Origin: Betaproteobacteria bacterium
GTDB taxonomy: Bacteria > Pseudomonadota > Gammaproteobacteria > Burkholderiales > Burkholderiaceae_D
DNA length: 42,201 nt
Reading direction: 5' to 3'
NCBI GenBank assembly: GCA_903644065.1
Contig: CAHJXF010000001.1
Span: 1-42,201 of the forward strand
The position numbers and the translations under genes are program-made. The notes under the pieces were generated by a model. That model searched no databases and had not been told where the DNA came from. It saw only the letters and a program-made list of their open reading frames with translations. Of the stretch, positions 17,524 to 37,691 are shown in pieces (position 1 is the first letter of the stretch; every line of letters starts with the position of its first letter).

Positions 17524-18435
17524 TCAACGCATGGCGTGGTACATGCCGGCGAGCGTCTCCCGCAGCGGAACGATGTCGAGCGGCCCGATCGCCTGGATCA
17601 ACGCGGCCGGATCGCCGGTCAGCTGCTTGATGTCGTTCCTGCGCACGAACGCCGGATTGACGCGGACGTCGATCTCGTAGCCCGCGATCTCTTCCATCAG
17701 GCGAATCACGTTCGTGAGGGAGGTGGCGATGCCGGTGCAGACGTTGAGCCTGGCGGACCGGATGTCGCTCGAGAGGAGTCGGCGATACACGTCGACCACC
17801 ATCCGCACGTCGGCGAAGTCGCGTTCGACGTCGGTGTTGCCGAGCTCGATGACGCGCTCCCCGCGCGCGAAGTGGGACACGATCTTGGGCACGAGGAAGG
17901 ACGTCGATTGCCCGACGCCGGTGTAGTTGAACGGGCGCGTCATGACGATTGGCAGGCGATCGAAATAAGTGGCGGCCATCGTCTCCATCGCCATCTTGCT
18001 GGCTGCGTAGTGACTGGCCGGCGCGAACGGTTGCGTCTCCGCGATCGAGGCACCGCCGATGTTGCCGTAGACGTTCGCGCTGCTGGCGAGCACCACCTTG
18101 AGCGGCTCGTGCTTCGACCGGCTCAACGCTTCGAGCAGATGCGTCGTGCCGACCACGTTGACGCGATAGAAGTCGGCGGCGTCTGCATGCGGCACGAAGC
18201 TGATGGCGGCAAGATGGATGACGTAGTCGGGCCGCACCCGGGCCACCACGTCGACGCACTGCTCGGCCGATGTCAGATCCAGTGCGACTTCGCCGGGCCC
18301 CGCCTTTTCGAGGACGGTCCCGATCACTTCGTAGCCGGCCTGCTCCAGCGTGCGACGCAGCGGCTCGCCCGTGAACCCGCGAGCGCCGGTGAGCAGCACG
18401 CGTGCGGGCGACGGCGGATCGGGTGCGGACGTCAT
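17524..18435 (-). CDS. rmd: GDP-6-deoxy-D-mannose (GDP-D-rhamnose) reductase
   Basis: 303 residues, extended SDR. It shows LLTGARGFTGEPL at the N-terminus, HLAAISFVPHA, SSANVYG (118-124), and Tyr143/Lys147 in HYAASKMAME. Unlike GDP-fucose synthase, the position next to the catalytic serine carries no Cys (fucose synthase has SSCIYP), so an epimerase function is unlikely and a simple 4-keto reduction to GDP-D-rhamnose fits. The adjacent gmd supplies the substrate. I use the ATG at 18435 (MTSAPDP), 37 bp after gmd; the frame is open to 18486, overlapping gmd. It is the last gene of the upstream minus-strand unit, before the 115 bp gap. Confidence 0.88.
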   Translation of the reverse strand: MTSAPDPPSPARVLLTGARGFTGEPLRRTLEQAGYEVIGTVLEKAGPGEVALDLTSAEQCVDVVARVRPDYVIHLAAISFVPHADAADFYRVNVVGTTHLLEALSRSKHEPLKVVLASSANVYGNIGGASIAETQPFAPASHYAASKMAMETMAATYFDRLPIVMTRPFNYTGVGQSTSFLVPKIVSHFARGERVIELGNTDVERDFADVRMVVDVYRRLLSSDIRSARLNVCTGIATSLTNVIRLMEEIAGYEIDVRVNPAFVRRNDIKQLTGDPAALIQAIGPLDIVPLRETLAGMYHAMR

Positions 18436-18472
18436 GTGGGTCGGGTCGTCGTGCGCCGAGCCGCCTCGCCGG

Positions 18473-19537
<1,065 letters not shown>

Positions 19538-20563
19538 TTATTGTGAGAGGCTCTTGCGATATTTCTCCGCTTCCCAGTCGAGCAGCGCGAAAACCGAGTC
19601 GTCCGAAAGCGAGGACGCCGACGCGGAGGTGCGCAGTCTAAGGCACACGTCGGCGTAGCAATCCAGCATGGCATCGACCACGCCCGACGCGTTCGCGTCG
19701 ATCCAGACCCCTTGTCCTTCGACGATCGCGCACGGGAACCGGGCACGCTGTTCGGCGTTCGTGACCTCGATCGCCGACCCGGCCGTCGCCAGGTCCGGGT
19801 AGATGCGCGCCTGTGGCCCGAGGAACACGGCATGGTCCGGATATAGCACCCAGTGTTCCTTCGCGAGCGTCAGGCTGACCGCATCGATTGCGAGCGACAT
19901 CGTCGCCGTGCGCTCGACCGGTCGATGTCCCTCCAGCGACGGCAGCCCGGCGGCCGATGGCGACGGCACGACGCGAGGATCCAGTCGCAACCGTCGCAGC
20001 GTCTCGAAGTAGAGCCGCTCGATCGCCGCGGTGTCGTCGGCACAAAAAACGATGCCGTGATTTGCGAGGATCAGGACGTCGGGTGCGGTGTCGCACTCGG
20101 CCAGCTGCTGCGCGATCCGGGACGCCAATTCCGCGCCTGGTTTGCAGTAGGGCACCCACATCCAGCGCAAGCCGTCGAGGCGTTCGGCGACGCCTTCGCG
20201 GCCGTCGATCCGCACCGCCCACGCGATCGCGTCGATCGCGTGCAGGTGGGCGACCAGCGTCTGCGGCATCAGGGCGTGCAGGGCGGTCTCGATCGACGGC
20301 CGCAGCGACGAGCCGCCCAGCCGGTGCTCGCCGTAGGTCTCCCGACCCTCGGCGATGCAGCGGCGTACGCCCGTCAGGTCGACCGGCACGAACAGGTCCT
20401 GTGAGCGAGCGTGCGCGAGCCAGGCGCCGGACGCTTTGATCCACAGCGTATCGCCTTCCTTCCACGAGACGTTGCCGCCGGCGCCCTGGATCAGCATCGG
20501 GTCGGAACCGACCCGCTCGGAAAAGGCTTCGACGTGTGCGCGCAGCGCGTCAGTGGAGGACAT
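19538..20563 (-). CDS. Class II aldolase/epimerase (AraD/FucA fold) family protein
   Basis: 341 residues, longer than typical AraD/FucA (about 215-230); the fold occupies roughly 8-205 and the rest is a C-terminal extension. Visible elements: phosphate-binding GAGGNVS (27-33) and KASG (43-46), the acid PSIETALH (89-96) with Glu92, zinc ligands in HLH (106-108) and NHG (168-170). Members split or epimerise ketose phosphates via an enediolate. Its neighbours are a HAD phosphatase, a PRK-like kinase and a nucleotidyltransferase rather than catabolic genes, so a biosynthetic role in an unusual sugar donor is plausible but inferred. Its ATG lies 14 bp inside the end of the upstream membrane-protein gene. 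Confidence 0.8.
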   Translation of the reverse strand: MSSTDALRAHVEAFSERVGSDPMLIQGAGGNVSWKEGDTLWIKASGAWLAHARSQDLFVPVDLTGVRRCIAEGRETYGEHRLGGSSLRPSIETALHALMPQTLVAHLHAIDAIAWAVRIDGREGVAERLDGLRWMWVPYCKPGAELASRIAQQLAECDTAPDVLILANHGIVFCADDTAAIERLYFETLRRLRLDPRVVPSPSAAGLPSLEGHRPVERTATMSLAIDAVSLTLAKEHWVLYPDHAVFLGPQARIYPDLATAGSAIEVTNAEQRARFPCAIVEGQGVWIDANASGVVDAMLDCYADVCLRLRTSASASSLSDDSVFALLDWEAEKYRKSLSQ

Positions 20564-22286
20564 AGTCGACGTCGTATTTGCTGGTCGGATCGATGTTGTA
20601 GAACCACGCGCACCCTTCCTGGACCAGGGTCAGTCGCAAAGTGTAGCGGCCGGGCTGGTCGGGAAAGTCGATCACGACCGGGACGACAGCGGTGGCATGC
20701 GCGGCAAGTCCCTCCGGCATGAAGCTACGCCGCCCGTCCTTCACGACGGTCTTGCCGTCCGCCGTCAGCCAGTGGTAGCTGACGTTGACCGAACCCGCCG
20801 TGGTGCTGGACCGATAGGCGACCTCGGAGGCGTTCGTCACTGCGATCCGGGCGATCTCGAGCCGTTCGCCGGTCAGCTTCGACATCAGGCTCTGCGAGCC
20901 GGGCACGTCTTCGATTCCCACCAGCGCGACCTGCGCCCGATAGTCCTTCAGGCAGGCGGTCGGCTCGTGCGAAGTCACCTGCGAAAGTCGCACGTAGCGA
21001 TCGAAATCGACGCTCGGCACGTTGATCCGGTCGTCCCACAGGTACGCCGCCATCAAAACGTCCGTCGCGACGAACAGCAGGACGAACGTCACCTTGCCGC
21101 CGCGACTGCACCATGCCAGCAAGAACGGAACGGCCAGGATGAAGATGCCGGCCGCCTTCATGTAGCCGAAATAGATCGTCATCACCACTTCGCCGAAGCA
21201 GGCGTACAGGACGCACAGGACCAGCAGCGACAACGCGAGCGTGCGCACCTCGACCTGCGCAACCGTGCTGCGTCGAAATGCCCGGAACGCGAGCCATGCG
21301 TTGCCGGCCAGCAGCAACATGAAGGCGACCAGCCCGGCGGCTTCCCAATACCCCCGCGCCCCGAGCACGATCGGGTGCTGCTCACGCAACGAGTCCGCCA
21401 GGAACAGGAACCATTTCTGGAAGGGCGGTGCAAGGATGCCCAGCGCCTGCGACGAGGGCGCATGGTGGAAGCGCAGGCGCAGGAACAGTTGCCAGGCCGC
21501 GAAGATCGCCACCGGGACGATGGCCGGCCACGCGCTCGTCCGTAGCCAACCGATCGCGGTGCCGCCCCAGTCCGTCGCCGCCATCGTCGGTCCGGTCGTT
21601 CGGGCGCGCCGCGACATGACCGTCTCGTACGCGCTCACCAGCAGATAGATCATCGGCACGATGACGTAGGCCTCGCGGGCGAGGCTGGCCAGCGTCGCGA
21701 TCACGGCGAAGCCTGCACGCTGCCTGCAGAACAGGCAGACCAGCGCGACCAGCAGCAGCGCATCGGCGGCGCCGTCGGGCAGCGCGTTGAGCACGGTCAG
21801 CTGGACCCCCAGCGACAGGCTCCAAAAAAGGATCCACTCCGGACGGGTGCCGACCCTGCGCAGATACAACGTGCCGACCAGGGTCGCGAACAGGATCAGT
21901 CCGAGATTGGTCAGGTAGTACGTGGTCGGGCTGACCCAGTCGCGGAACGCCGCCTTGCTCGCGATCCAGGCGAGCAGCGGCAGGCCGATGCGCTGGTAAC
22001 GGTAGGCATCCGCATCGAGATGGTCCGCGGTGTCGGCGCGATCCAGCGGATCGTTGGCGATGTAGTAATAGAACTGGCCGTCCCAGCCACTCTCCTTGCC
22101 CTGGTAGAACGGCACGAGCCCGTGGTCGAGCAACGCTCGGGGCATGCCGAAGACCTTCGCGGACAGGATGTGATTGTCGAGGTCGTCGGCGAGCACGTTG
22201 TGCCGATAGATCAACATCAGGACGACGCTGACGATCAGCGTCAGACCGGTGACGATGATCGGCGACAGCCAAGATCTCGCTTTCAT
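20550..22286 (-). CDS. Polytopic membrane protein, GT-C glycosyltransferase-like, with soluble C-terminal domain
   Basis: 578 residues. A first helix (about 8-27) is followed by a loop with GWDGQFYYYIANDPL (67-81), whose acidic/aromatic pattern recalls the first periplasmic loop of GT-C enzymes. About ten more hydrophobic stretches follow to about 418, then a soluble region (about 425-578). In that region SVNVSYHWLTADGKTV, FMPEGL and GRYTLRLTLVQEGCAWF suggest a beta sandwich. I do not recognise a named family. A lipid-linked sugar transferase working in the periplasm is the best guess, supported by nearby GtrA and DPM1-like genes. It starts in an ATGA overlap with the HAD gene and overlaps the aldolase start by 14 bp. 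Confidence 0.7.
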   Translation of the reverse strand: MKARSWLSPIIVTGLTLIVSVVLMLIYRHNVLADDLDNHILSAKVFGMPRALLDHGLVPFYQGKESGWDGQFYYYIANDPLDRADTADHLDADAYRYQRIGLPLLAWIASKAAFRDWVSPTTYYLTNLGLILFATLVGTLYLRRVGTRPEWILFWSLSLGVQLTVLNALPDGAADALLLVALVCLFCRQRAGFAVIATLASLAREAYVIVPMIYLLVSAYETVMSRRARTTGPTMAATDWGGTAIGWLRTSAWPAIVPVAIFAAWQLFLRLRFHHAPSSQALGILAPPFQKWFLFLADSLREQHPIVLGARGYWEAAGLVAFMLLLAGNAWLAFRAFRRSTVAQVEVRTLALSLLVLCVLYACFGEVVMTIYFGYMKAAGIFILAVPFLLAWCSRGGKVTFVLLFVATDVLMAAYLWDDRINVPSVDFDRYVRLSQVTSHEPTACLKDYRAQVALVGIEDVPGSQSLMSKLTGERLEIARIAVTNASEVAYRSSTTAGSVNVSYHWLTADGKTVVKDGRRSFMPEGLAAHATAVVPVVIDFPDQPGRYTLRLTLVQEGCAWFYNIDPTSKYDVDYVLH

Positions 22287-23032
22287 GACGGCGCCGTCAA
22301 TCCGTCGAGCATCGCGCTCAACTCGGAAAAGTGGCCGAAGCTGCAGTCGGGCAGTTCGTCGCCGGTACCCATCGCGACGCCCGCGTGGAGCTTTTGCAGC
22401 GTGACCGCGGCGATCTCGCGACGCGCACCCAGGATGTCGTTGTGCGGGTTGTCGCCGATCATCCAGATGCACGGACCCTTCGGCCGCATCTTCTCGACCG
22501 CCAGCGCGAAGGGTGCCCGGTGCGGCTTGTCGAAGCCCGCTTCCTCGCTGGTGACGATGTAGTCGAAGTACTGGTCGAGACCGAAGTACACGATCTTGCG
22601 AAACTGGATCTGCGCGGTCAGGTCGGTGACGACCGCCGTCGGGATGCCGGCCAGCCGCAGGTCGTCGAGGAACTCCTTCACGCCGGGAAACAGTTCTGCA
22701 TGGGTCAAGAAGGTGCGCCAGTAGGTCTGCTCCAGATCCAGCGCCAGCAGCACCTGCGAGCCGAGGCCGATCAGTTCGAGCATCCGCTGGAAATACAGCA
22801 GGCGGCTGTGCGATCCGGAGGTCGCGCCGAGCCGCGTCTTGGTCTCCTTGCGTGCCCGGTCGTAGGCTTCCTCGAACTGCGCGGCGCTCATCGAGAACAT
22901 CGACATCGCTTTCGTGCGGACCGCCTTGAAGCCTTCGTGATGGGACGGGTCGTACGGATAGAGCGTGTTGTCGGTGTCGAAGAGGACGGCGTCCGGCTTG
23001 ACCAGGAATTGCTCGGGACGGTGGAGCGTCAT
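22283..23032 (-). CDS. HAD superfamily phosphatase
   Basis: 249 residues. Motif I is LFDTDNTLYPYD with the nucleophile Asp19 and acid/base Asp21; a helical cap follows (about 30-110); motif II is the Thr in VVTD (134-137), motif III Lys169 in GFDKPHRAPF, and motif IV IGDNPHNDILGA (192-203) with Asp194 and Asp199. All catalytic residues are present. The DNTLYP signature is shared with YjjG/SDT1-type nucleotidases, but its position between the kinase-fusion gene and the GT-C-like gene suggests removal of phosphate from a sugar or polyol phosphate in the same pathway. ATGA overlaps on both sides. Confidence 0.85.
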   Translation of the reverse strand: MTLHRPEQFLVKPDAVLFDTDNTLYPYDPSHHEGFKAVRTKAMSMFSMSAAQFEEAYDRARKETKTRLGATSGSHSRLLYFQRMLELIGLGSQVLLALDLEQTYWRTFLTHAELFPGVKEFLDDLRLAGIPTAVVTDLTAQIQFRKIVYFGLDQYFDYIVTSEEAGFDKPHRAPFALAVEKMRPKGPCIWMIGDNPHNDILGARREIAAVTLQKLHAGVAMGTGDELPDCSFGHFSELSAMLDGLTAPS

Positions 23033-25107
23033 AGCAGGCGTTTCCGCATCCCTTCATGGATATGGGCGACCGTGATCAGTTGCATCAGTCCGGCGACCCC
23101 GTCGCGCCAGCAGGCACCCAGGTCCAGCAGTTCGTTGAGCCGCGGAATCAGTCGTCGCGCCGCCATTGCGATGTCTTCCGACGAACATTCGCCTTCGATC
23201 ACCAGTTCCACCTGCGCCCGGTCGCCGGTCAGCGTGTGCTCGACGTGCAGGCCGCAGACACCGACCAGGACGCGGGCCAGATCCTCGTCGAGCAGCCCCT
23301 GACGAAAGCGGACCGCGAGCTTGAGGCGCATCGGATGCTTGCCCGGCTCCTCGAGCAGCCGCGGATGGATCGGGCGCAGCGAGAAGACGACGTCGGCATG
23401 CTCGGCCTGCGGATGGATGAATTGCCGCGCATCGACCATGCGCCGATCCAGCGCCGCGACGACGCCCTGCATCTTGTGGCCGCGCTGCCCCACGTCGCGC
23501 TCGATCTTGAAGTGGCGCCGCAGCCCTTCGTCGATGTCGAGGTAGATGCTCAGGTCGTAGCACTCGCGCAGGATCGGCAGGTACAGCGCGTGCAGTCCGC
23601 TCGCCAGGATCACGTCGTTGCTGTGCACGCGATGCGGCTTGCCCTTGCGGCCGATCGAATGGTCGTAGTGGCGCTTGACAATGGTGCGCTTGCCGGCCAG
23701 CGCCATCAGGTCGTGCGCGAATTGCGACAGATCGTTGGCGCGCGGGTGAAGGTGCGTCATCACCTGCCACATCGGCTTGTGGCGGTCCCAGAAGTGATAG
23801 TCGTCGCCCGACAGCTTGGCGACCGAATGGCTGCCGAACAACCCTTCGAGCGAATCGACCAGCGTGTCCTTGCCCGCGCCCGAGTCACCGGCGACGCCGA
23901 TGATCAGCGGCTTGCGACTCATGCGGAAGTAGTCGTTGTCGACGATCGAGCCCTTCCACAGCCGCGCGCTGACCACGACGCCCAACCCGAACAGAACGGT
24001 CTCGAGCAACGCGATGCCGCGCGCGCCGATTGCATCGCGCGTCAGGGCGGCCGCCTGGTCGGGCAACGTCGTGCCGAGCAGCGACGGCATCGGCGTGATC
24101 AGCAGCGTGACCAGTACGTACAAGATCGAGAAGCCGGTCGCGAGCAGGATGGCGCGCCGGCCGTTCTGCACCTGGTAGAAGACCAGGAAGGGCAGGACCC
24201 ACACGAACCACCCCGGCGCCGCCGGTGTCAATAGCAACACCAGGAAGAAGACGACCCCGATGAACGCCACCAGCAGGTCGAAGCTCATGCGGCGCATCTG
24301 CCACGCGACGTACACCAGCAACAGCAGCGCGAGCGGCAGCAGGTAGATCTGAACGCCGGTGCCGAGCGGCAAGGTCAACTCGTAGGTCTTCGCGATCTCG
24401 GGGTTGCCCGCCAGCATCCGTACGGCGGCCGGCGATGCGAGATAGAAGATGGCCAGCAGCGCGAGCGACACCGCGAGTCCCATGACGAAGCGCGGTGCGA
24501 GTCGCCGCAGCCCCGGGTTGCGATACAGGTAGATCAACATGAAGGGGATGGGCAGCACCATGCTGGCCTTCGCGGAGACGGCGATGCCGCACAGCACCCC
24601 GGCCCGCCGCATGTCGAGCGAGCGGAACGACATCAGCGCGAGGCACAGCAGCGCGATCGGCACGACGTCGTTGAGGCCCAGCCAGTAGGTGGCGAAGAGG
24701 GCGATCGGCGAGCACCAGTAGAGCGTCAGCAGCACGCGTTCCGAGACCGCGATGAAGCGTCGCAGTACGAACACCAGCGCGATGTCGAACGCGAGCAGGG
24801 TCGCGGCGTAGCCGTAGATCACGGACAGCCCGGTCGCCTGGGCCAGCGCGCAGAGCGGCAGGAGGGCCAGCCACATCACGTAGCCGTACGGAAAGGCCCG
24901 CTCGTTGCCGCCGCTCGCGAGAAAGTCCGCCCACGGTGCGAAGCCCGGATGAGAGACGCTGTGCGCCATGAACGGTCCGTACCATTCGGTGGTCGCGCGT
25001 GGCAGCACCGCGACGATCAGCACGATGCGGATCGCCAGGCCGGCCAGGAACAGCGGATGGGCCAGGACCGGTCGCGCCTGCTGCAGCAGCGAACGCGGAT
25101 CGATCAC
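23029..25107 (-). CDS. Fusion: GT-C-like membrane domain and phosphoribulokinase-like kinase
   Basis: 692 residues from the GTG at 25107, which overlaps the upstream stop (GTGA). Residues 1-390 contain about ten hydrophobic helices with GLNDVVPIALL (144-154) and PGWFVWVLPF (298-307), resembling polyprenyl-phosphate-dependent GT-C transferases. Residues 398-692 form a P-loop kinase: GDSGAGKDT (407-415), GDDYHFWDR (434-442), HPRANDL (454-460), YDHSIGRKG (481-489), DLSIYLDID (518-526), KIERDVGQRGH (534-544) and FIHPQAEHAD (563-572). This order matches plant/cyanobacterial-type phosphoribulokinase. Where PRK has EGLHP, this protein has SGLHA (503-507), so a conserved Glu is replaced. The product and the reason for the fusion are unknown. 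Confidence 0.75.
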   Translation of the reverse strand: MIDPRSLLQQARPVLAHPLFLAGLAIRIVLIVAVLPRATTEWYGPFMAHSVSHPGFAPWADFLASGGNERAFPYGYVMWLALLPLCALAQATGLSVIYGYAATLLAFDIALVFVLRRFIAVSERVLLTLYWCSPIALFATYWLGLNDVVPIALLCLALMSFRSLDMRRAGVLCGIAVSAKASMVLPIPFMLIYLYRNPGLRRLAPRFVMGLAVSLALLAIFYLASPAAVRMLAGNPEIAKTYELTLPLGTGVQIYLLPLALLLLVYVAWQMRRMSFDLLVAFIGVVFFLVLLLTPAAPGWFVWVLPFLVFYQVQNGRRAILLATGFSILYVLVTLLITPMPSLLGTTLPDQAAALTRDAIGARGIALLETVLFGLGVVVSARLWKGSIVDNDYFRMSRKPLIIGVAGDSGAGKDTLVDSLEGLFGSHSVAKLSGDDYHFWDRHKPMWQVMTHLHPRANDLSQFAHDLMALAGKRTIVKRHYDHSIGRKGKPHRVHSNDVILASGLHALYLPILRECYDLSIYLDIDEGLRRHFKIERDVGQRGHKMQGVVAALDRRMVDARQFIHPQAEHADVVFSLRPIHPRLLEEPGKHPMRLKLAVRFRQGLLDEDLARVLVGVCGLHVEHTLTGDRAQVELVIEGECSSEDIAMAARRLIPRLNELLDLGACWRDGVAGLMQLITVAHIHEGMRKRLL

Positions 25108-25691
25108 GACCAGAGCTCGGGTCGCTTCGTGCAGACCGCGTCGGCGACGATGCCTTCGTCGGCCAGCAATGCGCGCAACGCGGGGATCTCGACTTCGGCG
25201 GGACGACCCTGCAGTTCGGGCGAGACGAGACACAGCCGGAAGCCGGCCTGCTGCAGCCGGGTCGCGTCGCGACCGTCGATCGGAAAACGGGTGAAGCAGT
25301 CGACCCACACCCAGTCGATCCGCCCGGCCAGCGTCAGCGCCGTCTCCATCGTCTCGAACTCGGAGACGCGGACCGCGCAGCGCCTCTCGCCCATGCGCGA
25401 CCACTTGACGAGGAACGGGAACGACTGGTCGAGGAAGAACCAGCTCGCGACGCGATGTCGCTCCATCGCGTCGATCAGCCGCGCCTCGAGGCCTTCCTCC
25501 TTGACGTTGAGGATCAGCGTGCCGTGGCGATAGGCGGTGATCCACGTCTCGAAGTCCTCGCCTGCAACGAACGGATCGTGGTGGATCACCAGCCGGTCGC
25601 CTTGGCTGCGCAGGTCGACCTCGATGCCGTAGGAGACCGGCGTGGCTTCGAGCTCGGTGACGGTATTGCGGCGATGCGCGATCAGGTGCAT
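25104..25691 (-). CDS. Short glycerophosphodiester phosphodiesterase-like protein
   Basis: 195 residues against about 240-300 for typical GDPDs. It retains the opening IAHRRN (4-9), IEVDLR (23-28) with Glu24 and Asp26, HHDPF (37-41) and a metal-binding-type NVKEEG (about 62-67), so the N-terminal active-site set His6, Arg7, Glu24, Asp26, His38 is complete. The C-terminal part (DWVWVDCFTRFPID, then a last strand FRLCLVSPEL) is compact. No signal peptide, so probably cytoplasmic. GDPDs cut glycerophosphodiesters; here the gene is coupled to the kinase fusion (GTGA) and follows the GT2 gene by one base, suggesting it acts on a pathway intermediate or phosphodiester-linked polyol. The substrate is unknown. 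Confidence 0.75.
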   Translation of the reverse strand: MHLIAHRRNTVTELEATPVSYGIEVDLRSQGDRLVIHHDPFVAGEDFETWITAYRHGTLILNVKEEGLEARLIDAMERHRVASWFFLDQSFPFLVKWSRMGERRCAVRVSEFETMETALTLAGRIDWVWVDCFTRFPIDGRDATRLQQAGFRLCLVSPELQGRPAEVEIPALRALLADEGIVADAVCTKRPELWS

Positions 25692-25692
25692 G

Positions 25693-26403
25693 TCAGGTGG
25701 GCGTGCGGCGCAGGTCGCGCTTCAGCTTCAGGCTGAAGTCGACGGTGCGCCGGATGAACTTGCGCTTGGCGGCCCAATCGACGTTCCAGTGCGACGTACC
25801 ATGCGCTCGTTCGCCGAACAGGACCGGGAAACGTCGCGCTCGCAGTCCTGCGCGGAGTGCGGTGTAGTAGACGTACAGATCGAGCGAAAAGTCGAGCGGC
25901 GGTTGTTTCCAGGTCGCCAGGAACGGCGCCGGGAACATCGTCGGCTGCGCGTTGATGTCGGACAGCGGCTTGCCGAGCAGCGCGGTCTCGAACGCGCTCA
26001 TGCCGGCAGTAAACAGGCGATCGCCCAGCGGCCGGCCGTAGCGCTTGCCCTTGACGAAGACGTCGGGCCCGAAGCGGTCGAACAGCGCCAGGCCCGCCAG
26101 CGCGTCCATCGGGTCGGTCTGCAGGTCCGCGTGGGTCCAGCCGAGGATGGTGCCGTGCGCCGCACGCAGCCCCTCGAGGATGCCGTGGCCGTAACCCCGG
26201 TTGACCGGCACGCGGATGCTGCGGACACCGCGCCGGTCCGCGAGCAGCGCGGCGAGCACCGCCGGCGAATCGTCGGAGGAGCCGTTGTCGACCAGTACGA
26301 CCTCGATGTCGCCGGCGGCCACCAGTTTCGCGCAGCGCTCGACGAGCAGCGGCAGGCTGCGCGCCTCGTTGTAGCAGGGGATGACGAGCGACAGGCGAGG
26401 CAT
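25693..26403 (-). CDS. GT2 glycosyltransferase, DPM1/GtrB-like catalytic domain
   Basis: 236 residues: LVIPCYNEARSL (6-17), VVLVDNGSSDDSP (35-47), NRGYGHGILEGL (68-79) and HADLQTDP (91-98), where the usual DAD metal motif reads HAD. This is the pattern of dolichol/undecaprenyl-phosphate sugar transferases (DPM1, GtrB, ArnC). The two C-terminal helices of GtrB are absent, so it would act as a peripheral protein like eukaryotic or archaeal DPM1. The adjacent GtrA fits: Und-P-sugar made here, flipped by GtrA, used by a GT-C enzyme outside. The ATG at 26403 shares one base with the gtrA stop (TGATG). The sugar is unknown. Confidence 0.85.
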   Translation of the reverse strand: MPRLSLVIPCYNEARSLPLLVERCAKLVAAGDIEVVLVDNGSSDDSPAVLAALLADRRGVRSIRVPVNRGYGHGILEGLRAAHGTILGWTHADLQTDPMDALAGLALFDRFGPDVFVKGKRYGRPLGDRLFTAGMSAFETALLGKPLSDINAQPTMFPAPFLATWKQPPLDFSLDLYVYYTALRAGLRARRFPVLFGERAHGTSHWNVDWAAKRKFIRRTVDFSLKLKRDLRRTPT

Positions 26404-26852
26404 CAGGCGAGCGGGACGCGTGGATGGAAGACCCAGAATTTCATGCCGACGAAGTTGAGCACGGCCGACAGGCCGGTGGCGCATAAGAAGGCCAGCAGCA
26501 CCGCGAAGGAAGCGGGGACGAATCGTAGCGCGATCGCCAGCACCACCGCGTTGGCCACGACGTTGACCAAAAGGGTCGACGCATAAAGCGCGGTGAAACG
26601 CCACCCGCTGCCGGTGCGCGGCCGGGCGTTCGAAAAGGTCCAGCGACGGTTGGCGAAGTAGGCGAACACCGTCCCCGTGACGAAGCCGGCTCCCTTGGCC
26701 ACCGCCACGTGCAGTCCGGCCGCGAGCAGCAGTCGATAGCCGACGAAGTCGACGAGTACCGTCAAGACCCCGATGACGAGGAAGCGGCCGAGTTCGCCTT
26801 GCAGGTCCGCGCGGGCCGCGACGGCGGCGGACCGGGGGGTGTCGTGGTTCAT
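26403..26852 (-). CDS. GtrA-family membrane protein
   Basis: 149 residues with four predicted helices (about 30-48, 53-72, 90-110, 115-136) in the GtrA pattern: RFLVIGVLTVLVDFVGYRLL, a small-residue second helix, FAYFANRRWTF and a C-terminal NFVGMKFWVF. GtrA proteins are thought to flip undecaprenyl-phosphate-linked monosaccharides in O-antigen and teichoic acid decoration. The start (MNHDTPRS) has a GAGCGG upstream and is 4 bp after the nucleotidyltransferase gene. Its place next to a DPM1-like GT2 and near two GT-C-like genes gives a complete Gtr-like set. Confidence 0.88.
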   Translation of the reverse strand: MNHDTPRSAAVAARADLQGELGRFLVIGVLTVLVDFVGYRLLLAAGLHVAVAKGAGFVTGTVFAYFANRRWTFSNARPRTGSGWRFTALYASTLLVNVVANAVVLAIALRFVPASFAVLLAFLCATGLSAVLNFVGMKFWVFHPRVPLA

Positions 26853-26856
26853 CCGC

Positions 26857-28557
26857 TCACCGCCCGACCGGGCCGCCGGGCGACGGCAGGGCCGGCGAGA
26901 CGATGCGATAGCGAGCTTCCAGCGTGTCCTTCGCGTCGGTCGGCACCCACGGATCGTCCTCGATGCGGTACGGATGGCCCGACCACTGGTGGAAGCACGA
27001 CTGCCAATACTCGAAGCTGCGCAGGTCGTCCGGCGTGCCCCATGACAGGTAGTGGTCGACCGCGAAGAGCCGGCAGTCGAGGCCCAGCGCCAGCGCATCG
27101 TTGACGCAGGTGTCGAGATAGAACTCGCCGTTCACGCGGCCGTCGCGTTCGATCATCCGCGCGAGGCAGGCGCGAAAGTCCGCGGCGCAACGGAACGTGA
27201 ACGTGCCGAGCACGATCGGGTCGTGCGCCGGATCGGCCAGCGGTTGCTTGACCGAGACGCGTTCGATGCGATCCGAGCCGTCCGCCGTCGCGATCCAGCC
27301 GAACATCTGCGGTCGCCGAACCGCGTTGACGTTGCCGCGCACGCCCCACACGACGACGTCGACCGTGGGGTCGTCGAGCAGCCGCTGCAGGGCCTCGGCG
27401 TCGTACAGGCAGCCGAAGTCGCAGGCCCCGAAAGTGATCGGTCCGCACGCCGCCTCGGCGCTTGCGGCCTCGAGCGCGTCGAGCCCGATCGCCGCCGTCA
27501 CGGCCTGCCCCTCCGTGAGCCGTTCGACGGTGGGCAACGCGGCGTCGGGATAGGCGCCCTGCAGCGCGTCCGTCACGGTGTCGAGGCCGGGCATGTCGGC
27601 CCGTACGACAAATGCGTGTCCGGTCGCCGCCGGAAGGCTGGCGATCGCCTGCATCACCATCGGTCGGCCCGAGACCGGGATCACCGGCTTGGCCAGCGCG
27701 TAACCGTCGCGCCGAAAGCGCTCTCCCATCCCCGCCATCGGGACGACGAGCGCACCGTGCGGCGTCATGCTCCGCGACGCGATCGAGTCGGCGTCGAGGA
27801 GCCGGCGGAAGGCCTGCGACCAGCCGAGGTATTCGCGGACGTCCTCGGGCGTGCCCCACTGCATGAAATGCTGCAAAGGATAGACGGCGACCCGGCTGCC
27901 GCGCGCCAACATCGGCTTGTAGGCGAGGCTCACGTAGTACTCGCCGTTGACGTGGTGGTCCGCGGCGACCGCGGCTTCGAACGCTTCGGCGAGGATGCGG
28001 CCCGACGCGAAATAGTAGGTGCCGCTCGACGCGTACTCGTTCATGCGCTGGTCGGTGTACGGCTGCTTTTCCTGGATGTCGAGCGCCCAGCCGTCGTGCT
28101 CGCGCAGGTAAGCGTAGTTGGTCGAGCCGAGCGAGTGCGGGTGGAAGCCGCGATAGGCCGGCAGGGCCCCGTCGCAACTCGACTCCGCGACGAAGCGCTT
28201 GAAGTGCGCCCAATCCCAATAGCACGTGAAATCGCAGTAGTTGACGATCACCGGTCGGTCCGGGTCGATCCAGTCGGACGCGCGCTGCACCGCATGCACC
28301 GGCCCCAGCTTGTGCGACGGGATACCGCGCACCGTACCGGTCGGACACAGCGCGGCGAGCGTCTCGGCCATCCGGTACTCGGGGTGATCCAGATGGTCCT
28401 GGTTGCAGATGAACAGCACGTCGCGCTCGCCGGGGAACAGGTCGAGCACGTGCGCGATGATCGGCTTGCCATCGATCTCGATCAGCGGTTTCGGCACCGC
28501 ATAGCCCGCCTTGCGGAAGCGTTCGCCGAAGCCGGACATCGGGATGACGATCTGCAT
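26857..28557 (-). CDS. Tandem sugar-nucleotidyltransferase-like protein
   Basis: 566 residues made of two copies of a nucleotidyltransferase (GT-A-like) domain. Copy 1 (1-265): IPMSGFGERFRKAGY (5-19), PKPLIEIDGKPI, CDF (108-110), EKQP (163-166), NGEYY (204-208), WGTPEDV (234-240). Copy 2 (268-566): VPMAGMGERFRRDGY (272-286), AKPVIPVSGRPM, CDF (379-381), VKQP (437-440), NGEFY (476-480), WGTPDDL (506-512). Both keep the loop, Lys and Asp motifs, so both may be active or one may be regulatory. Such enzymes activate sugar or polyol phosphates with NTP. The ATG at 28557 is used since it starts the first strand; the frame is open to 28617. Substrate unknown. Confidence 0.83.
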   Translation of the reverse strand: MQIVIPMSGFGERFRKAGYAVPKPLIEIDGKPIIAHVLDLFPGERDVLFICNQDHLDHPEYRMAETLAALCPTGTVRGIPSHKLGPVHAVQRASDWIDPDRPVIVNYCDFTCYWDWAHFKRFVAESSCDGALPAYRGFHPHSLGSTNYAYLREHDGWALDIQEKQPYTDQRMNEYASSGTYYFASGRILAEAFEAAVAADHHVNGEYYVSLAYKPMLARGSRVAVYPLQHFMQWGTPEDVREYLGWSQAFRRLLDADSIASRSMTPHGALVVPMAGMGERFRRDGYALAKPVIPVSGRPMVMQAIASLPAATGHAFVVRADMPGLDTVTDALQGAYPDAALPTVERLTEGQAVTAAIGLDALEAASAEAACGPITFGACDFGCLYDAEALQRLLDDPTVDVVVWGVRGNVNAVRRPQMFGWIATADGSDRIERVSVKQPLADPAHDPIVLGTFTFRCAADFRACLARMIERDGRVNGEFYLDTCVNDALALGLDCRLFAVDHYLSWGTPDDLRSFEYWQSCFHQWSGHPYRIEDDPWVPTDAKDTLEARYRIVSPALPSPGGPVGR

Positions 28558-28641: not shown

Positions 28642-29481
28642 TCATGCGGGCACGAGCTGCCGGATCCGGTCGGCTTCGAAGGCGCCGACCAGGTTGCAGT
28701 ATTCGAGATGGAGGATGTGACGGTACATCGCGATATAGCGCTGGTCGTTGTTTCGCAGGTCGAGCGTCGAGTCGCCGTGCACTGCGTACAGGAACGGAAA
28801 GACGGCTAGCAGCTCGTCGAAGAAGTCCGGGACCGAGGTCCGCTGGAACGCGTTCAGGCACCAGTGATTCAGTTCAAGGACGACGACCGGACGATGGCGA
28901 TGGAGGGATGCCGTCAAACCGCGCAGCACGTGCAGCTCGAACCCTTCGACGTCGATCTTGACGAAATCGATCGGCTGCTCGCCCACCAGCGCGTCGCCGT
29001 TGCGTACCCGGATGGGCTCGACGGTATGCCCACCGCTCGCCTGCGTCTGGTTCGAGACGAAGGCCCCGGCACGGTTGGTCGGCGCGAAGGTGAGCGTCAG
29101 GTCCTCGTCGATCGTGCCGAGGCCGACGTTGTGCAGCGTGATGTTGCGCAGTTGCGAGCACCGAACGTTGCGCTGCAGGTAATCGAACGTCGTGGGTGAA
29201 GGTTCGAAAGCATCGACCCGTGCGGCCAGCTGGGCGAACAGGATGGCGGTGAAGCCGACGTTGGCGCCGATGTCGAGGCAACGATCTTCGCTGCGGACGA
29301 GTCGGCGGAACAGCTTTTCCATCGCTGGCTCGAAGGTCGTGCCGACGTGCGCCAGATAGTCGTCGTCCGACTCCATCAGGTAGGTGCCGTCCCCGATCTT
29401 CACGTTCGCCCTGCCGCCGCGGTCCATACGCTTCTCGTTGGCTACCTGCGCTGCACGACGTTTGCGCCAGGCGCCGATCAC
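28642..29481 (-). CDS. FkbM-family SAM-dependent methyltransferase
   Basis: 279 residues. The FkbM core shows CLDIGANVGFTAI (68-80, SAM loop), VDAFEPSP (89-96), and FVKIDVEGFELHVLRG (173-188), the family hallmark. The N-terminal 60 residues contain the usual VKIGDGTYLMESDDDYLAH segment. FkbM members O-methylate sugars, polyketides and other hydroxyls; in this position methylation of a glycan residue is likely. Its ATG overlaps the stop of the triple glycosyltransferase gene (ATGA), so the two are coupled, and 84 bp separate it from the nucleotidyltransferase gene. The exact acceptor is unknown. Confidence 0.88.
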   Translation of the reverse strand: MIGAWRKRRAAQVANEKRMDRGGRANVKIGDGTYLMESDDDYLAHVGTTFEPAMEKLFRRLVRSEDRCLDIGANVGFTAILFAQLAARVDAFEPSPTTFDYLQRNVRCSQLRNITLHNVGLGTIDEDLTLTFAPTNRAGAFVSNQTQASGGHTVEPIRVRNGDALVGEQPIDFVKIDVEGFELHVLRGLTASLHRHRPVVVLELNHWCLNAFQRTSVPDFFDELLAVFPFLYAVHGDSTLDLRNNDQRYIAMYRHILHLEYCNLVGAFEADRIRQLVPA

Positions 29482-32400
29482 TGCAGTCGCAACGTCTTGA
29501 TGTACAGCCCCAGCCGTCGCCTGTCCCCGCCGCCTGGCGAACGTGCGCCGGGGACGCGGATTTCGAGCCAGTTTTGCTCACCGAGCAGGATCGAGTCGCG
29601 AGGCAGGACCACCGAAATCACGTGGTCCGCCAGCGTATGTGTCTCGGCATACAACAGCACGTCGTTGAGAACGAGGAAGATGGTTTGCTGGTCGTAGGTA
29701 CCCACGACGATCTCCAGCGTCTTCGGGACCAGGCTGTCCCTCGGCAGCAGGAAGCCGATCCGCGACCGCTTGCCTTCGGTCCAGCGATGGGTCGGCTCGA
29801 CCACGGACCAGCCTTCCCAATCGAGCTTCAACGAGTCGAACGGCAGTGTCTCGGGCGGCTGGATGTACGCGGTGGCTTGCCACTGCCGCGTGCTGGGGCC
29901 GTCCATGCGCTGCATCAGCTGGCGGGCGCTCGCGGCCCATGAATAGAAGCGAATGCCCGTGGTCCCCGGCGCCTTGCCCGCTTCGAACAGCGCGATCCAT
30001 TGCCGAACGCTGGTGGCGAGGGCGTCCGCATCGGTACCTTCGAAGTAAAACGCGTGATCGCCCGCCACTTCGCGGAACACCTTCAAATCTCGCGCGATGA
30101 TCGGCAGGCCGTGTTGTGCCGACTCGATCAGCGGCAATCCGAAGCCCTCGCCGCGCGACGCGGCGATCAACGCGGTCGATGCGGGATAGATCTGGTCGAG
30201 GAACTCGTCGCTGATCCTCTCCAGCCAGAACAGGCGGGTGCCGAACTCCGCGTGATTCGTGACGCCCGTCAGAAACTCGTCCATCAACCAGCCCGACTTG
30301 CCGACGATCACGAGGCCCACGTCGAGACCCTCGGCCCACAACAGATCGAAGGCCGCCACGACCTGCGCATGACCCTTGCGCGGCTCGACGGTGCCGACCA
30401 TCAGGAAGCTGCGGCGCGCCCCGATCGCCTCGAGCATCGCTTCGCTGCCGGCCGGCAAGCCCTTGGTCGGCGCGCTCGCGCCGAGGTCGGCGCCCAGATG
30501 GAACGATCCCACCTGCAACGGCACCTGTCGCAGCGGCTGATTCTCTTCGAGCCATTCGACCAGATCATCGGCCACCGCGTCGGAGATGCACATCACGCGA
30601 TCGGCGAACTTGCCGATGGTCTGCAGCCACAGGCCGAAGGCGATGTCCATGCCCTTGGGAAAGAAGCCGGGCAGCTTGACGGGCAGGAGATCGTAGGCGA
30701 CGAAGACGATCCGTACGCCGTGTTCGCTTTGCGAACGAAACCAGTCGGGCATCAACGTGACGCAGTCGCCTGCAAGGTCCAGGCCCAGGAAGACGTCGCC
30801 GGGCTGCGTGTCGATGACTTCTTCCTCGACGTCGCTGGCCGCGGCGCCGCCCAGCAGGGTCGACAGATAATGGTCGGCTTTGCGATAGACGCTGTCGCCG
30901 AGGTGTGTTCGCACCGGTTCGATCCGGTAACCATCGGGCTGGTTGCGCAACAGTTCGAGCAGCATGGCACGGACGGTGCGTTGAATGCCGGTGCGCAGGT
31001 CGAGGTCGGCGATCGCCGAGACATCGACATAGAGACGTGGCTCGATTGCGATGTTCAACGCCCGCGCCATCGCTTGAGCGGTCGCCCCACGATGCCAGGC
31101 GGTACGCGGCGCGAACGCGGCCCATCGATCGGCAAATCGTTCGAGGCGTTGTGCATGGCGGCGCGGCGAGAAGCGCAGAGCCGTTTCGATCGCCGTCGCG
31201 TAACGGGCGGCCACCGCACCCGGGTCGTGCCGTTCGCGCACCTGCCGTCGTCCACGCTGCGCGAGTTCCGCGCGAAACGCATGATCGTCGGCGAGGCGGA
31301 CGATCGCCTGTTGGAGATGCATCGGGGTGACTTGCTCGGGCAGCTTGAGCACGACGTCCGACGGCAGCTCCGAAAGGCTGGCGTGGTCGTTTACGATCAG
31401 GGCGATCCCTGCGCCCAGCGCATCGAATACGGCCGCCGACGTTTCACCGCGCGAGGCGCCGCGCAACTGCACCACCACGTCGGCAGCGGCGAGGTAGGTG
31501 CGGTAACCGGCATTCGACACGTGGCCCGTGATGTCGAGCCGCTCGGACGACTCGCGCGCAATGCGTCCGGCGATCGTCGTGCCGTATACGCCGGCCTGGT
31601 TGGCGCCGACGAAGGTCAACCGCACGCGCTTGACCAGCGATATCGGCAACAGGTCCCATGCGTCCAAGATCAGATGATTGAGCTTGTGCGGCGCGATCAT
31701 GCCGAACGAGCAAATCAACAACTCGTGCGGCTGCACGCCCAGTTCGATGCGCGCATGGTGGCGTTCCTGCAGCCTGACCATCGCCCGCGGGAACGGAATG
31801 GGCACGTGGCGACGGGCGATGGAGCTGCCGTACCAGTAGCGCGCGAGGCCCGCTGCGTATTCCGAGTGCACGATGACGCAGTCGGCCGCCTCCAGCACAT
31901 CGAGGTTGCACGGCAATTCGGCGACCACCGCGTCGCGTCCCTCCTCGCTCAGCAGCAGCCGGCCGGCCGGACCGTGCGAATGCGCGACGGTCTGCTCGAA
32001 CCAGACGCCGTGACCGGGCTGCTGTTCGCGCCACATCTGCAGGTCGCCCAGGAAGAAGTCGTGCAGTACGACCACGCCTGGGAAGCGCTGCAGCAGGCCG
32101 AACATGTGCGAGTGGAACGGCGAGTTGCCGAAGTGGTAGAGCACCCGCTCGAACTGGTCGCCATGCTGCTCGAACCACTGCAGCGAGCGCAGCGGCATCC
32201 ACTCGGGTATCCACGATGTGTCCACGTCGGCCTGATCGACGATCAGCTCGAGGGCGTAGTGCGCCTGCAGCGCCGGGATCAGTTCGGCGCAGTAGTCGGC
32301 AATGCCGCTCGGTGCCGGTGGCAGCGGCGCGACGAAGGCCAGACGAGGCCGCGTGTTCTGCAGGGTCTGCAAATCGACCGGTGCGCCGGTGCCGCGCTGA

Positions 32401-33626
32401 TCGGAGAGCCGCCGCAGATGGGTCAGTGCGCGCTCGGCAACCTTGTCCCAACCGAAGCGAACCACCAGATCCTCGTGATTCATGCGCAGCCGCGCCAGGG
32501 CTTCGGGATCGCGCAGGACGCGATCGATGGCCGTGTGCAGCGACTGCGCGTCCCCGGCGGCCCGGGCCTCGGCGCGCAACTGCACTTCGCGCATCGCCGG
32601 CGTGTCGACCGTGAGCACCGGCGCGCCGCAGCTCATCGCCTCGAGTGCCGGCAGGCCGAAGCCTTCGTGCAGCGACGGAAAAACGAACAGTTCGCAGTGC
32701 TGATACAGCACGACGAGTTGCTCGTCGGTGACATGGCCGGTGAAGACGACGTCATCGCCCATCCGCAGGCCGGCACCTTCGATGCGGTCGGTGAGGCGAG
32801 TGAGCGCCGCGCTGGCACAGCGCCCGGCCAGCACCAGCTGGCGCCCGGCCCGCAACTCGCGATCGAGGCCGGCATAGGCCTCGACCAGGGCATCGAGGTT
32901 CTTGCGGCGGTCGTAGCCGCCCGCGTAGAGGATCGCCTTCCCGCGCACGCCGAGCGCCGAGAAAACGGCCGCAACTGCATCGCCGTCGCCACTCTCGGGC
33001 GGCACGAAGCGCGAGTCCAGTCCGGTCCCGATGATCGTCAGCTTCGCGTCGGCGATGCCGAGCAGCGTGGCGGCCTGTTCCTGGGCGGTCGTCGAGATCG
33101 ACAGCAGGACGTCCGCGTTGCGCAACGACGCAATCTTCCGCTCGTACCACGACCGCATCGTCGCATTCGCGAGGTACTCGTCGGGCGCGAGCATCGGGAT
33201 CAGGTCGTAGAGCATGACGGCGGTCGGCAGGTGGTTGACCCAGCCGCCGACCGACGTCACCGCCGACCCGCCGTACCCTTCGAAGAGACTCATCACGAGG
33301 ACCGCATCCGGTCGCAGTGCGCTGAGCGCGGCTTCGCGGATCACTTCACTGACGCCACGCCGTTCGTTGTTCTCGTCGTCGCTCCCGCTGGTTGCGCCGA
33401 TGCTGTGAAAACCGCGGATGCGGGCGGCGGGCACGATGTCGGCAAAGTCGGCGCGAAGCCGGGCCGCGGACTCGCGCATCGTCTCGTTGATGAACAGGAA
33501 CAATTCGTCTTCGGCGTCGGCGCGCAGCGCGGCGGCGATGGCGACGCAGAGGCCCATCGCGTAACGACCGATGCCGCGGAAGCGACTCTCGCTCTGGACG
33601 CACTGCATGTCGATCACGAGACGCAT
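29478..33626 (-). CDS. Three-module GT4 glycosyltransferase with C-terminal beta-rich domain
   Basis: 1382 residues. Module 1 (1-408): FRGIGRYAMGL, YAGGYDRRKNLDAL, EX7E Glu321/Glu329 in HEGFGLPALEA. Module 2 (426-820): PSGIADYCAELIPAL, SFGMIAPHKLNHLI and RGETSAAVFDALG, where the second Glu is missing. Module 3 (864-1245): DVSAIADLDLRTGIQRT, VGTVEPRKGHAQVV, EX7E Glu1160/Glu1168 in GEGFGLPLIES. A last part (about 1260-1382) looks like a beta sandwich. Multi-module GTs of this sort (for example WbdA) polymerise O-antigen of ABC-exported chains; with gmd/rmd nearby a D-rhamnan or mixed polymer is plausible. Located between the WbdD-like and fkbM genes; it ends in ATGA with fkbM. Confidence 0.88.
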   Translation of the reverse strand: MRLVIDMQCVQSESRFRGIGRYAMGLCVAIAAALRADAEDELFLFINETMRESAARLRADFADIVPAARIRGFHSIGATSGSDDENNERRGVSEVIREAALSALRPDAVLVMSLFEGYGGSAVTSVGGWVNHLPTAVMLYDLIPMLAPDEYLANATMRSWYERKIASLRNADVLLSISTTAQEQAATLLGIADAKLTIIGTGLDSRFVPPESGDGDAVAAVFSALGVRGKAILYAGGYDRRKNLDALVEAYAGLDRELRAGRQLVLAGRCASAALTRLTDRIEGAGLRMGDDVVFTGHVTDEQLVVLYQHCELFVFPSLHEGFGLPALEAMSCGAPVLTVDTPAMREVQLRAEARAAGDAQSLHTAIDRVLRDPEALARLRMNHEDLVVRFGWDKVAERALTHLRRLSDQRGTGAPVDLQTLQNTRPRLAFVAPLPPAPSGIADYCAELIPALQAHYALELIVDQADVDTSWIPEWMPLRSLQWFEQHGDQFERVLYHFGNSPFHSHMFGLLQRFPGVVVLHDFFLGDLQMWREQQPGHGVWFEQTVAHSHGPAGRLLLSEEGRDAVVAELPCNLDVLEAADCVIVHSEYAAGLARYWYGSSIARRHVPIPFPRAMVRLQERHHARIELGVQPHELLICSFGMIAPHKLNHLILDAWDLLPISLVKRVRLTFVGANQAGVYGTTIAGRIARESSERLDITGHVSNAGYRTYLAAADVVVQLRGASRGETSAAVFDALGAGIALIVNDHASLSELPSDVVLKLPEQVTPMHLQQAIVRLADDHAFRAELAQRGRRQVRERHDPGAVAARYATAIETALRFSPRRHAQRLERFADRWAAFAPRTAWHRGATAQAMARALNIAIEPRLYVDVSAIADLDLRTGIQRTVRAMLLELLRNQPDGYRIEPVRTHLGDSVYRKADHYLSTLLGGAAASDVEEEVIDTQPGDVFLGLDLAGDCVTLMPDWFRSQSEHGVRIVFVAYDLLPVKLPGFFPKGMDIAFGLWLQTIGKFADRVMCISDAVADDLVEWLEENQPLRQVPLQVGSFHLGADLGASAPTKGLPAGSEAMLEAIGARRSFLMVGTVEPRKGHAQVVAAFDLLWAEGLDVGLVIVGKSGWLMDEFLTGVTNHAEFGTRLFWLERISDEFLDQIYPASTALIAASRGEGFGLPLIESAQHGLPIIARDLKVFREVAGDHAFYFEGTDADALATSVRQWIALFEAGKAPGTTGIRFYSWAASARQLMQRMDGPSTRQWQATAYIQPPETLPFDSLKLDWEGWSVVEPTHRWTEGKRSRIGFLLPRDSLVPKTLEIVVGTYDQQTIFLVLNDVLLYAETHTLADHVISVVLPRDSILLGEQNWLEIRVPGARSPGGGDRRRLGLYIKTLRLQ

Positions 33627-33628
33627 GG

Positions 33629-36909: not shown

Positions 36910-37691
36910 AGAGCGTCCACGAGTTCGGGACTGGCCCGACGGAACACGCTCATCGTCACCAGGATCAGCCCGGCTGCCAGCAGCGCAGGAATGATAAGCG
37001 CCGTGAAATCGGGCCAGCGGCCGAACACCAGCGCCTGCTGATAGATCGCGACCACCGGCGTCAAGGGATTGAGAGCGGTCAGCCACTGCAAGCGCGGGGG
37101 CAGGCTACTCGCGACATACACAATCGGCGTCAGCCAGAATGCGAACTGCATCGCGATGCCGAAGACGTGCCCCACGTCGCGCACGAAAACGTTCATCAAC
37201 CCGAGCAGGATGCCCAGTCCGAAGGCCAGGGCGGCGAGCAGCACGCTGCCGACCGGAACGACGATCCAGACCAGCGACGGTGGATAGTCCAGATAGAGCA
37301 GGACGAGGGCTGAGGCAAGCAACAGCACCGCGTGGTTGATCAGCGCGCTGCACGCCACGACGATCGGCAGGCACAAGCGGGGAAAGGCGATCTTCTTCAG
37401 GACGCTGCCGTACTCGATGAACACGGTCATGCAGCGCAGGAGGATCTCTGAAAACAAACTCCACGCGGCGGTGCCGGCGATCAGGTAAGCCGCGTAGGCG
37501 GAGCGGCTGTCGGTGCCCGGCAGACGCGCGCCGAGAATGTCGGCGAGTACGATCGCATAGATCGATGCCTGGGCCAGCGGGTGCAGCACGATCCAGGCGG
37601 CCCCGAGTCGCGAGCGGGCGAAGCGGTTCTTGAATTCGCCTTTGACCGACGCGACGATGAAGTTGCGGTAGGTCCAGACGGCCTCAAACAT
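36906..37691 (-). CDS. wzm: ABC-2 type polysaccharide exporter permease
   Basis: 261 residues with six predicted helices and the ABC-2 pattern: N-terminal amphipathic region YRNFIVASVKGEFKNRFARS, RLGAAWIVLHPLAQA, the LKKIAFPRLCLPI cytoplasmic segment and FWLTPIVYVASSLPP near the last third. It forms the channel with Wzt for undecaprenyl-diphosphate-linked polysaccharide. It is the first long gene of the minus-strand unit; its ATG at 37691 overlaps the stop of a 30-codon open frame (37684-37776). Stop overlaps the wzt start (GTGA). Confidence 0.95.
   Translation of the reverse strand: MFEAVWTYRNFIVASVKGEFKNRFARSRLGAAWIVLHPLAQASIYAIVLADILGARLPGTDSRSAYAAYLIAGTAAWSLFSEILLRCMTVFIEYGSVLKKIAFPRLCLPIVVACSALINHAVLLLASALVLLYLDYPPSLVWIVVPVGSVLLAALAFGLGILLGLMNVFVRDVGHVFGIAMQFAFWLTPIVYVASSLPPRLQWLTALNPLTPVVAIYQQALVFGRWPDFTALIIPALLAAGLILVTMSVFRRASPELVDAL

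Follow-up and report, generated by a model that had tools for sequence, protein, structure and literature searches.

The window analysed here is a 42,201-nucleotide stretch from a Betaproteobacteria bacterium (assembly GCA_903644065.1, contig CAHJXF010000001.1), and it contains a module of eight genes, all on the minus strand between positions 28557 and 19538, whose predicted role in surface-polysaccharide synthesis is the subject of this study. The first gene to be transcribed encodes a tandem nucleotidyltransferase (NT; 26857..28557), a protein of 566 aa with two NTP-transferase domains (PF12804/PF00483). It is followed by a GtrA-family membrane protein (26403..26852; PF04138, 1.4e-17), a candidate lipid-sugar flippase, and by a GtrB-like GT2 glycosyltransferase (25693..26403; PF00535, 1.9e-21), a candidate loader of undecaprenyl phosphate. 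The next gene encodes a minimal GDPD-fold protein of 195 aa (25104..25691), which was assigned by its AlphaFold2 (AF2) model and fold match and has no Pfam match. Its stop overlaps the GTG start of a fusion open reading frame (ORF; 23029-25107), in which an N-terminal multi-pass membrane domain (23923..25107) precedes a C-terminal phosphoribulokinase (PRK)-like kinase domain that begins with the Met at 23922 (23029..23922; PF00485, 2.7e-33; PRK07429). The module is completed by a HAD phosphatase (22283..23032; PF00702, 1.5e-23) with the ribulose-1,5-bisphosphate (RuBP) 5-phosphatase NF053830 as its closest curated family, a second large membrane protein (Mem2; 20550..22286; NF046093), which is a candidate acceptor-specific transferase, and a long-form, RhaD-like class II aldolase of 341 aa (19538..20563; PF00596, 5e-18).

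The module genes overlap or almost abut throughout, with GTGA at the GDPD/fusion junction and ATGA at the fusion/HAD and HAD/Mem2 junctions; all eight are translationally coupled. A Rfam search of the window returned no RNA element. A preliminary description of this DNA had named five families at this place, namely aldolase, HAD, PRK-like kinase, short GDPD, and tandem NT. All five are present on the minus strand, while GtrA, GT2, Mem2, and the membrane part of the kinase ORF were missing from that inventory.

The grouping of these genes is not accidental, and the module is conserved in other genomes. A genome-wide scan with the GDPD-fold protein alone yielded 191 relatives, the best 80 of which were retrieved together with as much as 10 kb of sequence to either side, and linkage was counted on the 58 GDPD-found loci with at least 5 kb of flank on both sides. 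The kinase, its membrane domain, and the HAD each occur in all 58 loci, the NT and the aldolase in 56 each, GT2 in 51, and GtrA in 38. All five core families (NT, GDPD, membrane-kinase fusion, HAD, and aldolase) are found jointly in 55 of the 58, which bears out the earlier view that they form one conserved cassette; the lack of a shared neighbourhood in other genomes, named there as a refuting outcome, was not observed. Two gene orders prevail, NT-GtrA-GT2-GDPD-fusion-HAD-Ald and Ald-NT-...-HAD. The kinase forms one ORF with the membrane domain in 78 of 81 loci, and GT2 is 55-71% identical among other loci. Moreover, a kinase-domain search of the phylum sample retrieved four close homologues (45-50% identity), each in a fused ORF and each adjoining GT2, GDPD, and HAD genes; in one of these four genomes (G057), NT and aldolase are present, but on other contigs. 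No publication combined as many as four of six family names from this gene set, a weak negative result because most subscription journals lie outside the search. The module is a genuine and conserved one, and an undescribed one to the extent that the searched literature goes. It fits no single curated pathway tested, in agreement with its initial placement outside the standard NDP-sugar pathways.

Among the carriers are Massilia, Pseudomonas, Lysobacter, Erwinia, Yersinia, Legionella, Nitrosomonas, Roseomonas, Azospirillum, and Hirschia. The module is rare and patchily distributed: it occurs in 4 of the 369 genomes sampled from the class (the window's own included), in 1 of 25 Yersinia, and in 2 of 5,426 E. 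coli. Both E. coli copies are eight-gene modules between IS26 copies on plasmids of ~33 kb, one from human stool (NZ_CP145712.1, L119) and one from frog-farm sediment in a different country (NZ_JCAPUP010000005.1, L122). Within the collection searched, they are the only E. coli occurrences, and no chromosomal copy was found in this species. Because of this low, scattered prevalence and the IS26-flanked plasmid copies, we read the module as one that moves horizontally as a unit. A phage origin found no backing, as the kinase is without a match in 50,697 phage records. In Pseudomonas piscis MC042, two modules with identical maps reside in one genome, on two contigs (L101 and L103).

GtrA and GT2 are accompanied by a variable membrane partner. 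In 63 of the 71 loci with space for it, an additional large ORF with multiple transmembrane segments is located no more than 3.5 kb from the module; these ORFs split into several families without mutual matches, and Pfam gave them no family. Variability of this kind would be expected of an acceptor-specific transferase. In the window the partner is Mem2, which matches the cell-surface glycopolymer family NF046093 (1.8e-39), under the cut-off. Homologues of Mem2 adjoin the module in L041, L042, L048, and Yersinia proxima (L063), and weaker ones in L094, L114, and the Azospirillum plasmid L120. Together, GtrA/GT2 and the variable membrane protein suggest a lipid-linked product that is flipped and then joined to the polysaccharide as a side chain in the periplasm. 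In this respect the module resembles Gtr-type modules (GtrA/GtrB/GtrC), with which it shares the GtrA family, a GT2 of the type presumed to load lipid, an adjoining variable large membrane protein, and the format of a small mobile unit that may sit outside the O-antigen locus, as in Y. proxima. Unlike Gtr-type modules, it has its own donor-synthesis genes and a kinase fused to an additional membrane domain, and its donor is probably not a common NDP-sugar. Further, some module loci sit within O-antigen clusters. These clusters, GtrA/GT2, and the membrane partners support the earlier assignment to surface-polysaccharide synthesis, and the module quite probably attaches an unusual ketose or polyol to a surface polysaccharide.

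The kinase domain has the PRK/uridine kinase fold according to its PF00485 match. Its closest curated model is PRK07429 (190 bits), followed at a distance by udk (74 bits); it stays under the curated subfamily cut-off of NF005655 (236 bits), as the window copy reaches 190.3 bits and that of Y. proxima 209 bits. PRK structures are the best fold matches of the kinase half. With the fusion as Foldseek query, the matches listed all fell on the kinase half and none on the membrane half, which is all-helical in the AF2 model. A quick tree places the module kinases in a single clade (stem support 0.66), with PRK07429-type kinases as its sister group. P-loop Lys18 and the Asp at the PRK catalytic-base position are both kept in 77 of 77 module kinases. 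In the M. hungatei enzyme (MhPRK), His55, Arg59, Tyr98, His100, and Lys151 contact ribulose-5-phosphate (Ru5P)/phosphate, and Arg154 contacts ATP (PMC5241800). The equivalents H43, R47, Y86, H88, K139, and R142, a correspondence taken from alignment to cyanobacterial PRK, are kept in 73-77 of 77 homologues. As a first step, the PRK-like domain would phosphorylate Ru5P at C1 to yield RuBP; the residue evidence for this step is good, and the doubt raised by the metal ligands, discussed below, is serious.

The HAD phosphatase points in the same direction. Its best curated family is the haloarchaeal RuBP 5-phosphatase NF053830 (171.6 bits, 2e-50), and the next family reaches 97 bits. With NF053830, the module HADs of five genomes attain 171-191 bits, whereas the other HADs of those genomes reach at most 73 bits. 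The haloarchaeal enzyme converts RuBP to ribulose-1-phosphate (Ru1P), which is then cleaved by a class II aldolase (PMC9700705). On good family evidence, the module HAD would likewise take the C5 phosphate off RuBP as the second step, leaving Ru1P.

For the aldolase, RhaD-type curated models score best, and the zinc ligands His106, His108, and His169 as well as the catalytic Glu92 are present in 68 of 68 homologues. D-ribulose and L-xylulose are C4 epimers of each other; AraD epimerases, which are related to the aldolase, act by C3-C4 retro-aldol chemistry. RhaD with dihydroxyacetone phosphate (DHAP) and glycolaldehyde yields the L-xylulose configuration (PMC6202814). With moderate confidence, we propose as the third step that the RhaD-like aldolase splits and re-forms the C3-C4 bond of Ru1P, which would give the C4 epimer L-xylulose-1-phosphate. 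The preliminary description had ordered the steps as aldolase, kinase, phosphatase; this is probably wrong, since homology favours kinase, HAD, then aldolase acting on a ketose-1-phosphate. Its guess of a pentulose-type precursor has held up better. Pentulose phosphates are favoured because the Ru5P contacts of the kinase are kept, the HAD is nearest to RuBP 5-phosphatase, and the aldolase is RhaD-like, and on this homology a pentulose remains the best guess for the chemistry.

The same enzymes might instead serve catabolism or salvage, in which Ru5P would pass through RuBP and Ru1P to DHAP and glycolaldehyde. The haloarchaeal non-carboxylating pentose bisphosphate pathway indeed contains the HAD and aldolase reactions, with a RuBP 5-phosphatase-type HAD followed by a class II aldolase for the ketose-1-phosphate (PMC9700705). 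Further, a related long class II aldolase with ~37% identity to the module aldolase (Sinorhizobium meliloti pSymB, L142, 7956-9011) adjoins an FGGY kinase in what looks like a polyol catabolism locus. In contrast to the haloarchaeal pathway, however, RuBP of the module would come from the PRK-like kinase instead of ribose-1,5-bisphosphate (R15P) isomerase; neither ribose-1-phosphate kinase nor R15P isomerase turned up among the genes of the module, the aldolase is only distantly related, and the context of NT and glycosyltransferase is biosynthetic. The genes are tied to NT in 56 of 58 loci, to GT2 in 51 of 58, and to large membrane proteins in 63 of 71, besides those loci located in O-antigen clusters. 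A degradative role is thus very improbable, and in its simple form we reject it because of the linkage to NT, GT2, and membrane genes.

Activation of the ketose phosphate would fall to the NT and the GDPD-fold protein. Both NT domains retain the GxGxR, Lys, and Asp motif residues in 72 of 72 homologues. The genome that contains the window has another gene (G000:C122:7039-7380, L146) with a match to the second NT domain (1e-19). The AF2 model of the GDPD-fold protein (pLDDT 95) is a GDPD TIM barrel, and its best PDB fold match by Foldseek is a GDPD (E 3.6e-8), although searches of the Pfam library up to E 5 and of PDB sequences returned no match. H6, R7, E24, D26, H38, and D39, which form the HR, ExD, and HD motifs, are invariant in 39 sequences, and the barrel is ~50 residues shorter than the matched GDPDs. 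In the fourth and least certain step, for which the evidence is weak, the tandem NT and the GDPD-fold protein might convert the ketose-1-phosphate to a glycosyl donor. As a matter of chemical possibility rather than evidence, a 1,2-cyclic phosphate formed in a GDPD/PI-PLC-type reaction could provide a C2-linked donor. By analogy with Gtr systems, the GT2 would subsequently load the pentulose on undecaprenyl phosphate and GtrA would flip the lipid-sugar. Finally, as judged from position and association, the candidate membrane transferase, Mem2 here and other families elsewhere, would add the pentulose furanose as a side branch to the backbone.

Two known routes share parts of this logic. Like the module, the ADP/GDP-heptose pathways relocate a phosphate by kinase and phosphatase before NT activation; unlike them, the module uses other families, and GmhA and HldE/HddA types were not found among its genes. 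In the CDP-6-D-fructose/CDP-6-D-glucitol pathway of C. jejuni HS:5, a ketose phosphate destined for a surface polysaccharide is likewise activated by an NT, but this pathway starts from fructose-6-phosphate, continues with a reductase, and lacks kinase, phosphatase, aldolase, and GDPD steps (PMC10918830).

Furanosidic pentuloses such as xylulose occur in polysaccharides of Y. enterocolitica O:10, E. coli O95, C. jejuni RM1221, and Devosia (PMC8707391). The literature search, again weak in that most subscription journals lie outside it, found no synthesis route or donor for furanosidic pentuloses, and no nucleotide-activated pentulose. E. coli O97 is a further xylulose serotype; the E. coli survey is uninformative on O95 and O97, as no reference for either was identified. 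The Xylella O-antigen, considered as a second xylulose case, was dropped because the text match is an unrelated plant gene.

The closest link between module and structure comes from Yersinia. The O-antigen of Y. enterocolitica O:10 is a D-rhamnan with L-Xulf-(b2-2)-D-Rha branches, where L-Xulf denotes L-xylulofuranose, and its locus reads dcuC-[terC]-manC-manB-wzm-wzt-methyltransferase-GT-gmd-rmd-GT-GT-galU/galF, with no xylulose-making gene in it (PMC11380512). Y. proxima is the sole module carrier among 25 Yersinia species. Its O-antigen locus adjoins dcuC and has the order terC-manC-manB-wzm-wzt-MT-GT-gmd-rmd-GT-GT-galF/galU (MT, methyltransferase; GT, glycosyltransferase), as in O:10; gene names were read from the sequences, with Pfam for six of them. 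The module is located away from this locus, near hut-like genes. In the simplest reading of these gene sets, the module would supply the missing L-xylulofuranose branch of the O:10-type rhamnan. An Rmd-like enzyme (at least 45% identity) is present in 6 of 6 Mem2-type genomes, the window's included, versus 2 of 13 with other partner types (Fisher p 0.001, or 0.004 when an incomplete 1.8-Mb metagenome-assembled genome without Rmd is counted; the genomes are not phylogenetically independent, and L120, a plasmid-only record, was excluded).

We therefore favour, with a probability of about 0.5, a self-contained mobile module that turns a sugar phosphate of central metabolism into an activated pentulose, with L-xylulose the most likely one, as the furanose side branch of an ABC-transporter-type rhamnan O-antigen. 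Several points weigh against this reading. A ketofuranoside requires a C2-linked donor, and a C1 phosphate gives none directly. The HAD, at 171.6 bits, stays below the NF053830 cut-off of 330 bits, the aldolase reaches 23.9 bits against the ribulose-1-phosphate aldolase NF053831 with its cut-off of 300 bits, and the aldolase is also the least conserved part of the module (median identity 39%). Seven Roseomonas-type loci (L056, L067, L070, L079, L104, L111, and L116) hold the core module without GT2 and GtrA nearby. The L-Xulf link in Y. proxima derives from gene content, not from its serotype or O-antigen structure. Moreover, the reactions, their order, and the identity of the sugar are what we infer from the observed genes, families, residues, linkage, and locus match. 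In the kinase, the Walker-B Glu is replaced by Ser, Thr, or Asn in 77 of 77 module kinases (EG to SG or TG), and the Walker-A Ser/Thr is Asp in 71 of 77 (GKS/T to GKD). These changes apparently represent an exchange of metal ligands that marks off the module kinase family. Because of the lost Walker-B Glu and the Walker-A Asp, the activity could differ from that of PRK, and as the kinase departs from PRK at both Walker metal ligands, we name it PRK-like rather than PRK.

Taken further, the kinase might no longer be an ordinary Ru5P kinase at all. In that case the aldolase alone would produce the ketose phosphate, using DHAP and an aldehyde, while the kinase would act elsewhere, for instance on an intermediate bound to lipid or in a regulatory role. 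Its fusion to a membrane domain and the universal loss of the Walker-B Glu are in line with such a role, as are the kinases of L108, L109, L113, and L118, on uncultured gammaproteobacterial, Pseudomonadales, and Entotheonella chromosomes, which carry GKST and TGLH and hence neither acidic metal ligand. A dead kinase, however, would hardly keep the P-loop Lys and the catalytic-base Asp in all 77 sequences together with the Ru5P contacts, and the RuBP phosphatase-like HAD always adjoins it. We consider this alternative unlikely.

Somewhat less unlikely, though still doubtful, is a module of the same type with a different product, such as ribulose or another pentulose, a hexulose or tetrulose from DHAP and a different aldehyde, or a polyol, perhaps phosphate-linked and not a furanoside. 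HAD and aldolase are distant relatives of the named enzymes, ketose-phosphate cytidylyltransferases exist for D-fructose-6-phosphate in C. jejuni (PMC10918830), and the membrane partners, and therefore the acceptors, vary. Against it stand the kept Ru5P contacts, the proximity of the HAD to RuBP phosphatase, and the match between Y. proxima and O:10, which indicates L-Xulf.

A broader proposal is one that we put forward only tentatively. In building activated L-xylulofuranose for their O-antigens, many bacteria may use RuBP to relocate the phosphate from C5 to C1, with a membrane-fused, ligand-swapped kinase making the RuBP and the NT/GDPD pair activating the sugar, possibly through a 1,2-cyclic phosphate. 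RuBP is known as the Rubisco substrate and from archaeal nucleoside degradation; if the proposal is true, it gains a role beyond carbon fixation and nucleoside breakdown. The module would represent a full candidate gene set for a pentulose donor, tied to a serotype with a published structure but without known xylulose genes, and it predicts which strains should carry a pentulose sugar. It would also constitute a mobile cassette for O-antigen modification, equipped with the genes for its donor and already present on an E. coli plasmid.

Genes around the module in the window belong to a rhamnan-type O-antigen set; those at 17524..19510 and 29478..37691 are on the minus strand. Directly downstream lie Gmd (18473..19510), the GDP-mannose 4,6-dehydratase for the backbone precursor (PF16363, 1e-137; 77% identity to Y. 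proxima Gmd), and an Rmd-like reductase for GDP-D-rhamnose (17524..18486; 48% identity to the Y. proxima gene adjoining gmd). The order aldolase-gmd-rmd is common to the window and Herbaspirillum (L048). On the other side, the set at 29478..37691 comprises a glycosyltransferase (29478-33626) homologous to that of the Y. proxima locus, and a methyltransferase (33629-35698), Wzt (35665-37086), and Wzm (36906-37691) with 43%, 44%, and 38% identity, respectively, to the O:10-like locus of Y. proxima. Further matches to this locus are a glycosyltransferase at 9727-11532 (39%) and a ManB-like gene (35%). Finally, dTDP-L-rhamnose-type genes (rmlB/A/C/D-like ORFs, 13881-17408) adjoin gmd/rmd, and the backbone encoded in the window may therefore contain both D- and L-rhamnose.

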